Part shown: piece by piece, positions 11,120-42,038 of the stretch
Layout: the number at the start of each line of letters is the position of its first letter
Numbering within the stretch: the stretch's first letter is position 1
From: Leifsonia xyli subsp. cynodontis DSM 46306
GTDB lineage: Bacteria > Actinomycetota > Actinomycetes > Actinomycetales > Microbacteriaceae
NCBI RefSeq assembly: GCF_000470775.1
Contig: NC_022438.1
Location: 1,302,001-1,366,000, forward strand
Length of the DNA: 64,000 nucleotides
Direction: 5' to 3'
Notes under the pieces: model-generated
Told to the model about the DNA's origin: nothing
The model's database searches: none
Seen by the model: only the letters and a program-made list of their open reading frames with translations
Made by a program: the position numbers and the translations under genes

Positions 11120-11191
11120 AAGAATCTCCACAAAAGGGAGGAGATGCGCCGCCGGGAGGCCGGGAACGCGAGAGAAGGAGGAGTTCCCGGC
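11120..11191. repeat. Intergenic repeat relative with hairpin at the fabF 3' side
   Basis: Two GGAGGAG-type blocks (AGGGAGGAGAT at 11135-11145 and GGAGGAGTT at 11177-11185) are 31 bases apart, exactly the spacing seen in the larger inverted-repeat element at 39884-40110. The second block lies in a hairpin with perfect 9-base arms, GCCGGGAAC (11159-11167) and GTTCCCGGC (11183-11191), and a 15-base loop. Between convergent fabF and the DUF3145 gene, it may serve as a two-way terminator. Confidence 0.45.
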
Positions 11192-11231
11192 GAGCGGGCG
11201 GCGTCTGCCGGGCCCGCCACGGGAGTTCGCG

Positions 11232-39096: not shown

Positions 39097-39111
39097 TATA
39101 AGTGACAGGTG
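39097..39111 (+). promoter_or_regulatory. Extended -10 promoter, probably leaderless, for the TRIC gene
   Basis: TGATATAAG includes an extended -10 (TG-n-TATAAG, hexamer 39097-39102). The GTG start at 39109 lies where transcription should begin, six bases after the hexamer, and there is no ribosome site. This suggests a leaderless transcript. Confidence 0.45.
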
Positions 39112-39867
39112 ACAACCGACGCCCTTTCGATCCCGCTCTGGGGCGATTTGGTGGCCGTCGGCGTCGGCAGCCTGCAGGGCGCGATGTTCGCCTCCGGCTT
39201 CCGCGATCGCCGCATCGACCTGCTCGGCGTGGCCATCATCGGCGTTGCGACCGGTATCGGCGGCGGTCTGCTGCGCGATCTGCTGCTGAACGTGAATCCG
39301 GTGGCCCTCCAGTCGAACTGGTACCTGATCGCCACTGTCGTCTCGGCGTTGGCCGGGATGCTGCTGGTTCGGCTCTTCCGCCGCCTCGATCCGGTCATCA
39401 CCTTCCTCGACGCGCTCACCATCGGCCTCTTCGGCGCAATCGGCGCGACGAAGGCGCTCTCGCTCGGGCTGCCGAAGGTGCCGGCTGCGTTCGTCGGCGT
39501 GGTCTCGGCGGTCGGCGGCAGCATCCTGCGCGATGTGCTGCTGAACCTCCCGATCGCTCTCATGCACGTCGGATCACTCTACGCGGTCGCGGCCGGCGCC
39601 GGCACGGTGGTGCTCGTCGTGCTGGTCGACCTGGCGGTGCCGCCGAGTATCGCCGCGCTCGTGTGCGTCGTCGTGACCCTCGTCATCCGGCTGCTGGCTG
39701 TGAGATTCGGCTGGAGTCTGCCCGAACAGCGCGAACTTGGCCGAATCCAGCCGCCGCGGTGGATGGCCTTCGGCCGCCGCCCGAGCGCCCAGCGCACCCT
39801 CGACCGGACCGACACCGGCGCTATCCCCCGCTACCGCATCGAGAAGCCTGACCACCTCGCAGACTGA
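39109..39867 (+). CDS. TRIC cation channel / YadS-family membrane protein
   Basis: A 252-residue protein with about seven membrane segments and two copies of the family motif: [17 protein letters not shown] and [18 protein letters not shown] (GGG-x-x-R-D-x-L). This internal duplication is diagnostic of the UPF0126/TRIC family, which forms trimeric intracellular-type cation channels; bacterial physiological roles are unclear. The C-terminal tail (about 205-252) is cytosolic and basic. Divergent from recO, 32 bases away. Confidence 0.88.
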
Positions 39868-39883
39868 CCCCGCCTCCCCGGCC

Positions 39884-40110
39884 CGTGGCTCCGTGGTTCT
39901 GTGGGAAAGGGAGGACTTTCCGCCCATCTCGTCCGTGTACTCCGCCCTTCCCTGCCCGACGCTCTCATCGGGCCCGGATCTCCTCCGTTCCCGACGCGAT
40001 CGGAAAGGGAGGAGATCGGCGTGGGAAATGCGGGGATGTGGGGAAAGGGAGGAGTTTGCGGCCGGTGGGGCTGGAAACTCCTCCCTTTCCCACAGAACCA
40101 CGGAGCCACG
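39884..40110. repeat. Nested inverted-repeat element with GGGAAAGGGAGGAG motifs
   Basis: Perfect 32-base terminal inverted repeats (39884-39915 and 40079-40110) enclose 163 bases. The motif GGGAAAGGGAGGAG or close variants occurs three times forward (39903, 40002, 40041) and three times reversed (about 39939, 39979, 40076), giving nested hairpins such as GATCTCCTCC … GGAGGAGATC (about 39978-40017). No open frame is convincing. It lies in the gap between convergent TRIC and leuA genes. The structure suggests a non-autonomous mobile repeat or a complex two-way terminator. Confidence 0.85.
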
Positions 40111-40132
40111 CGGCGGGGATGGGGCGGCGGGC

Positions 40133-42038
<1,906 letters not shown>

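Follow-up and report, generated by a model that had tools for sequence, protein, structure and literature searches.

Repeats of the REP type are common in bacteria; in the available parts of the cited work, the protein named as their partner is an HUH transposase. REPINs and REPtrons are described there as dispersed extragenic palindromic repeats, arranged in doublets or tandem clusters, together with a non-mobile gene bordered by them (PMC3116915, PMC8266576). For the CGTC REP families no transposase is known, and the mode of spread is stated as open in the portion of the source at hand (PMC3733652). The 227-bp element described here, located at positions 39,884–40,110 of a 64,000-nucleotide stretch of the Leifsonia xyli subsp. 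cynodontis chromosome (the window), consists of two units without a gene and belongs to a REP/BIME-like family dispersed in Leifsonia. Judged against the accessible descriptions of REPIN/RAYT systems and REPtrons, the family shares with these both the short palindromic repeats in extragenic DNA, often arranged as doublets in inverted orientation or in tandem clusters of regular order, and a cognate gene that is flanked by the same repeats, is non-mobile and is matched in type to the repeat type. It differs from the REPIN/RAYT systems, as far as the same texts describe them, in that the putative Leifsonia partner combines an AbiEi wHTH with a Vsr-type nuclease-like part instead of being an HUH/Y1 transposase, and in the three-box unit with its 37/41 spacing, in which no GTAG tag was recognised by eye. 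We consider it reasonably probable that the system is of a REPIN/REPtron-like kind, with a Vsr-type nuclease-like protein and not an HUH transposase as the partner. As for the GTAG- and CGTC-tagged REPs in the available text of PMC3733652, most of the units follow coding regions, in gaps between convergent or unidirectional ORFs, and inverted dimers are formed, and Leifsonia box 1 has a weak CGTC-like start as in the CGTC REPs. The CGTC stems reported there are 8–9 bp long with loops of 4–5 nt, compared with a Leifsonia box of approximately 14–20 nt and a spacer of 23 nt, and the combination of tag, 8–9-bp stem and 4–5-nt loop is not found in the Leifsonia units; the strings "Leifsonia," "Actinobacteri," "Clavibacter," and "Microbacteri" have no occurrence in the main text of that paper. 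The regular spacing and alternating orientation of the units are also features of BIMEs (see PMC2817692), from which the Leifsonia units differ in sequence, spacing, and partner protein.

The element occupies most of a 265-nt gap between two genes that are convergent, as the first-pass annotation of this DNA had stated. These are an ORF on the plus strand (39,109–39,867), which we take to encode a TRIC-like membrane protein, and leuA on the minus strand (40,133–41,905), encoding 2-isopropylmalate synthase. The perfect 32-base terminal repeats reported earlier were confirmed by direct reading and pattern search, with 39,884–39,915 (plus strand) and 40,079–40,110 (minus strand) being exact inverted copies within inverted-repeat pair I1. 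The three forward and three reversed motifs of the same annotation correspond to six boxes, three per strand, at 39,903–39,916 (+), 39,940–39,953 (−), 39,980–39,993 (−), 40,001–40,014 (+), 40,041–40,054 (+), and 40,078–40,091 (−). They make up two three-box units positioned tail to tail, unit 1 (+37−40−; 39,897–39,999, plus strand) co-directional with the TRIC-like gene and unit 2 (39,995–40,097, minus strand) with leuA, which score 64.6 and 66.9 bits, respectively, with R1, a sequence-only unit model derived from 46 units of the L. xyli subsp. cynodontis genome. Compared with GGGAAAGGGAGGAG, two boxes are exact, two carry one mismatch, and two (at 39,940 and 39,980) carry more than two. With up to two mismatches allowed, GGGAAAGGGAGGAG has five matches in the 64-kb window, four of them inside the element, against 0.68 expected, and none of 100 shuffles gave as many. 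A weak R1 match (26.1 bits) is present elsewhere in the window at 11,133–11,197 on the minus strand. The long end had been proposed as the feature to follow through the genome and its relatives; a genome-wide pattern search at 31 of 32 bases returned the window locus only, whereas the boxes are widespread, so that the long end is local to this locus and it is the boxes that define the family.

The genome was searched for repeats as one contig of 2,686,418 bases (2.69 Mb), in which 93 pieces similar to the element were recovered at E values up to 10. By the box matrix, at least 67 clusters of two or more boxes are present, as counted in the window and in 66 fetched stretches picked by similarity to the element, two of which held no cluster; complete triads number 64 among these clusters. 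The order of boxes in a unit is strict, + (37/38) − (40/41) −, with the consensus +37−41−, and in a tail-to-tail pair of units the start of box 4 follows that of box 3 by 21 or 22 nt. The +− spacing is 37 nt in 56 cases, 38 nt in 19, and 39 nt in one, that of ++ or −− pairs is 40 nt in 26 and 41 nt in 43, and that of −+ pairs is 21 nt in 10 and 22 nt in 6, with the remainder scattered in each class. Since the box matrix holds no spacing, this regularity is an independent result, although the loci were picked by similarity. Three boxes are found in 32 clusters, six in 12, two in 11, five in 8, and four in 4, and the spacers between boxes are poorly conserved. At one six-box element (L076, locus positions ∼2589–2630) a short TG/GA-rich microsatellite between boxes 5 and 6 stretches their spacing from 37 to 55 nt. 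The family therefore shows what characterizes REPs and BIMEs, namely many extragenic copies of palindromic units at gene ends, and combinations of alternating orientation that sometimes form ordered arrays.

Clusters lie mostly directly behind stop codons, and of the 64 that were classified, 37 have convergent neighbors, 26 tandem ones, and one divergent ones; the genes were called by a simple codon-usage script, and the classification omits three of the 67, two having no right neighbor and one being called within an ORF. Among nearby gaps that hold no element and measure 80 nt or more, 11 are convergent, 67 tandem, and 35 divergent, a baseline that understates the convergent share because it omits the element gaps. 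In tandem gaps, 10 of 12 single three-box units have the order +−− when followed in the direction of the upstream gene (p 0.019), which allows a six-box element between convergent genes to be seen as carrying one unit for each of them. Along the chromosome the clusters are evenly spread, with 8, 6, 8, 4, 6, 9, 8, 6, 4, and 8 per tenth, and a role in chromosome domains was rejected.

Folded as RNA, the window element reaches −168.3 kcal/mol on the plus strand (z −11.4) and −167.4 kcal/mol on the minus strand (z −13.9), with none of 200 shuffles as low on either strand, in agreement with the hairpin-forming design noted at first. Among the six copies in the orthologous leuA gap, 99.1% of the cells of the box1:box2 hairpin are paired and both sides have changed in 4 of 19 pairs, a number reached by 6 of 500 shuffles when the structure is drawn from the very sequences tested. 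The proposal of a large RNA structure is accordingly retained at the level of one unit hairpin, where the paired changes make a structured RNA a plausible identity of the unit. Conservation of the two arms as a single long hairpin is not generally supported; at ten two-unit loci the complementarity of the arm spacers within a locus does not exceed that between loci, indicating that the boxes are kept and not one perfect long hairpin. No intrinsic terminator (stem-loop followed by a T-run) was found in 39,800–40,200 and no sigma-70 site in the gap of the element, and a comparison of the element with Rfam gave sub-threshold matches only, mostly to miRNA families. The units could be RNA 3′-end signals only, acting as terminators or 3′ stabilizers with one per gene and two for a convergent pair, the nuclease-like gene described below being a mere neighbor. 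Their location at gene 3′ ends, the sense orientation of 10 of 12 units in tandem gaps, and the paired changes in the six orthologues all agree with this explanation, which we nevertheless regard as unlikely. The T-run is absent at the window element, and 67 clusters seem few for the size of the chromosome, which argues against a general terminator. It would also leave unexplained the two-sided boxes at 15 gene copies, the dialects that follow gene clades, and the inverted flanks in other genera. A simple terminator, the outcome that the first-pass annotation named as contrary to its own proposal, fits poorly for lack of the T-run and given the constant box spacing across loci and a partner gene bordered by units. 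A 3′-end RNA role of the units is compatible with the REPIN-like reading and not exclusive of it.

The probable partner gene was found on the same chromosome. Only two of 66 inter-cluster gaps in the genome are shorter than 3.5 kb, and one of these, in which two neighboring clusters lie 877 nt apart, encloses an ORF at 447,592–448,434. The same units face each other at this locus in the layout [+−−] gene [++−], and the same arrangement surrounds a protein of 59% identity in a second Leifsonia genome (G002). This layout without its gene would correspond to the six-box element. The earlier statement that the element has no gene is correct for the window copy and does not extend to the family, whose units border a gene elsewhere. 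By profile matches, the encoded protein has an AbiEi-type part at the N terminus and a REase_MTES_1575/DUF559 domain at the C terminus, and it is probably the cognate protein of the units. The available part of PMC3710099 counts MTES_1575 among novel Vsr-type REases. In alignment A4, from which six of the 37 gene copies were excluded (two with broken frames, one short, one fragmented, and two extracted later), matches at E 0.01 were obtained with MTES_1575 for 31 of 31 members, AbiEi_4 for 29, and DUF559 for 22; the source-genome copy scores 31.9 bits with MTES_1575, which is under the Pfam cut-off of 38.2. Residues Glu-180, Asp-207, Glu-217, Asp-219, and His-224 are invariant in all 31 members and are PD-(D/E)XK-like, so that a domain match and conserved acidic residues are both present, as expected for the Vsr/PD-(D/E)XK class. 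Two copies, L210 (G042) and L220 (G005), have disturbed frames near the C terminus.

Among PDB entries, the nuclease-like protein matched 3hrl ("Endonuclease-Like Protein," E 7e-4) and 3r3p ("Mobile intron protein," E 0.096), the latter presumably a homing endonuclease, with an unrelated co-chaperone at E 0.035 in the same list, indicating that the Vsr-like similarity is marginal. From these sequence similarities, the protein and the Vsr-like endonucleases of mobile introns probably belong to the same nuclease fold class; a PADLOC homing-endonuclease model matched 2 of 31 members, and unlike those endonucleases, the Leifsonia gene has no intron. Toward the N terminus, over a stretch that reaches residue 166 in some PADLOC AbiEi matches, the Leifsonia protein is like the AbiEi antitoxin of AbiE systems, from which it differs by the fusion to a nuclease-type domain. 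The RAYT-type domain PF01797 (Y1_Tnp) gave no match at E 0.001 in the source genome, whereas the same profile matched in 5 of 14 genomes as a control, and a different protein class would therefore stand in the place of the RAYT. In titles and the beginnings of abstracts, mostly of papers available without subscription, no pairing of an AbiEi/Vsr-type protein with palindromic repeats was found, and the strings "palindrom" and "mite" do not occur in the main text, as available, of a paper on L. xyli IS elements (PMC2516522).

The A3 profile detects the nuclease-like protein in 27 of 28 Leifsonia genomes, the exception being G018, the closest relative. In the gene tree, which comprises 36 copies with the fragmented G005b left out, 23 copies are located at site I, beside a gene that we take to be biotin-carrier-like, 12 at site II, beside what is presumably msrB (both names are based on sequence motifs), and one is unplaced. 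This restriction to two conserved chromosomal sites means that the gene itself does not look mobile. At least two R1 boxes are present on each side in 15 of the 36 copies read, all 15 at site I, giving a cognate gene bordered by repeats as in REPIN-RAYT systems, but of another kind. In 14 of these 15 copies the nearest upstream minus-box is 78–155 nt before the start (209 nt in G005), and in 13 the first 3′ box lies 26–47 nt before the stop, the exceptions being G042 and G005, whose frames are broken. The boxes could also be operators of a dispersed regulon, with autoregulation by the AbiEi-type wHTH at the upstream unit and further targets at the scattered copies. The AbiEi-type domains seen by profile and the position of the nearest upstream box in 14 of 15 copies are in line with such operators, but the scattered copies are behind genes, with one of 64 between divergent genes, and a second unit is located at the 3′ end of the gene, making this explanation very improbable.

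The flanking words differ between gene copies and follow the gene tree. Words of the CTCCGGAG type are found at five copies (upstream only in G012, downstream only in G016), four copies have other or unclear flanks, G017 shows R1 words in a variant form, and the 12 site II copies have GGAGATT-type dialect words upstream only, two of the 12 being without any. Placed on the gene tree, the four dialect groups require 5 changes, compared with a shuffled mean of 17.7 and none of 200 shuffles as low. The site II genes form a clade with support of 100/98, as do the R1-flanked genes together with G017 (100/98); the CTCCGGAG group is not one clade and requires 3 changes, with 14 of 500 shuffles as low. 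R1 matches listed per genome number 47–139 in the 15 genomes with an R1-flanked gene and 0–45 in the 13 without (Mann-Whitney p 4e-6, uncorrected for shared descent), a separation that is narrow at its edge (47 versus 45) and is obtained with a model built from the source genome. The dispersed units and the nuclease-like gene are thus associated within Leifsonia.

Among the matches listed (142 candidates scored, antisense half matches included), R1 is present in 27 of 28 Leifsonia genomes. Together with the clusters in the source genome, this excludes a single copy without relatives, the other outcome that would have spoken against the initial proposal. Under stricter filters R1 matched 5 of 149 genomes of the order, the four besides the source genome with one weak hit each. 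The two-box pattern identified a stretch with two facing units in genome contigs of Leifsonia sp. CL147, and gave no match in viral contigs; a stretch in a Syntrophaceae MAG was taken as chance. A plasmid search with the window element returned short, unrelated-looking matches only. Units in the leuA gap are common to 7 of 28 Leifsonia genomes (six besides the source), indicating that some copies are old. The same gap carries different dialects by species, with R1 boxes or CTCCGGAG boxes behind the same gene, and the same holds for L182 and L177 against L151 and L159 (R1 versus CTCCGGAG boxes). As a marker of the second dialect, GGAACTCCGGAGAT proved too strict, occurring at 16 places in 9 of 28 genomes. 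Several different hairpin families were seen in the leuA-TRIC gaps of the 28 genomes (L120–L147), and in part of these a CGACACGCCG / CGGCGTGTCG word recurs, which is also present in some unit spacers. Tandem box arrays were observed at L195 (G014:2674000-2679500; period ∼140 nt) and L193 (G023:4101500-4104000; period 121 nt).

In the closest relative, G018, the leuA gap measures 96 nt compared with 265 nt and retains a shortened remnant. By eye, this gap (L121) resembles the outer ends of the window element with the inside deleted. No clean empty site for the element was found, the shortened G018 site being the one case, and no target duplication was recognised by eye. For the idea of a non-autonomous transposable repeat in the first-pass annotation, support therefore comes from form, through a counterpart that carries a gene between the same units, and not from the insertion traces that were sought. 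The window element has terminal inverted repeats, as MITEs do, and such repeats, the gene-less copies, and gene-bearing copies with the same units would also suit a conventional MITE family of a DDE transposon with the nuclease-like gene as an accidental neighbor. We assign this explanation a very small probability, given that no target duplication was seen by eye, that the enclosed gene is nuclease-like and not a DDE transposase, that the gene keeps two chromosomal sites, and that the units form ordered arrays such as the one of period ∼140 at L195.

In the wider family, the A4 profile matched 102 of 150 genomes (E 1e-20; 1–7 matches each) and 63 of 85 genera. Inverted flanks with a score of at least 15 are present at 17 of the first 27 loci listed from other genera, whose orientation was verified, and at 9 of the 20 next on the list, for a total of 26 of 47 compared with 2 of 220 size-matched genes sampled from two genomes (G203 and G252); 21 of the 47 loci are below this score. 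The threshold was fixed after the controls were inspected and is reached by only 8 of 36 Leifsonia copies, and the score is therefore a coarse measure. When flanks were compared with flanks of other loci (154 pairs), the maximum was 16, which 14 of the 27 loci exceed, and among 39 control genes of the source-genome loci the top score was 19, for a gene that reads as a transposase by eye. One of the 220 control genes (L285:5009-5969, G252) scored 40, with a repeat arm across its stop codon. Its protein resembles AbiEi_4 weakly, at 18.4 bits compared with a cut-off of 25, and has a BLASTP match to the nuclease-like protein at E 0.089, similarities by which the gene is perhaps a distant cousin of the nuclease-like gene. 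At two loci at least (G275 and G278) the stop codon lies inside the 3′ repeat, as judged by eye. The flank sequence of the nuclease-like gene of G203 occurs 0 times in a 400-kb sample of that genome, and in G252 the flank word occurs 9 times in 400 kb versus 0–2 times for five controls.

In the REPIN/REPtron-like reading, the wHTH part of the protein would recognize the boxes, and the nuclease part would nick or cut at them, perhaps at extruded hairpins. Repair or strand transfer may then copy and homogenize the units, which would persist mainly where harm is small, directly behind stop codons. Hairpins at these positions may also end or protect the transcripts of both convergent genes. We see about an even chance that this extends to a REP-type selfish or domesticated system of the Microbacteriaceae, in which a Vsr-fold nuclease that reads DNA through an AbiEi domain takes the place of an HUH transposase, spreading and homogenizing its own palindromic sites, and the dialects of gene and repeat change together. 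The results suggest that this enzyme-and-repeat partnership is new, resembling the known REP-transposase pairs but distinct from them. If a second, unrelated kind of partner is confirmed, the REP lifestyle would seem to have arisen more than once, and many proteins now named AbiEi-domain protein or "very-short-patch-repair endonuclease" would gain a testable role. The dialect differences between species can serve as natural experiments on protein-DNA co-evolution.
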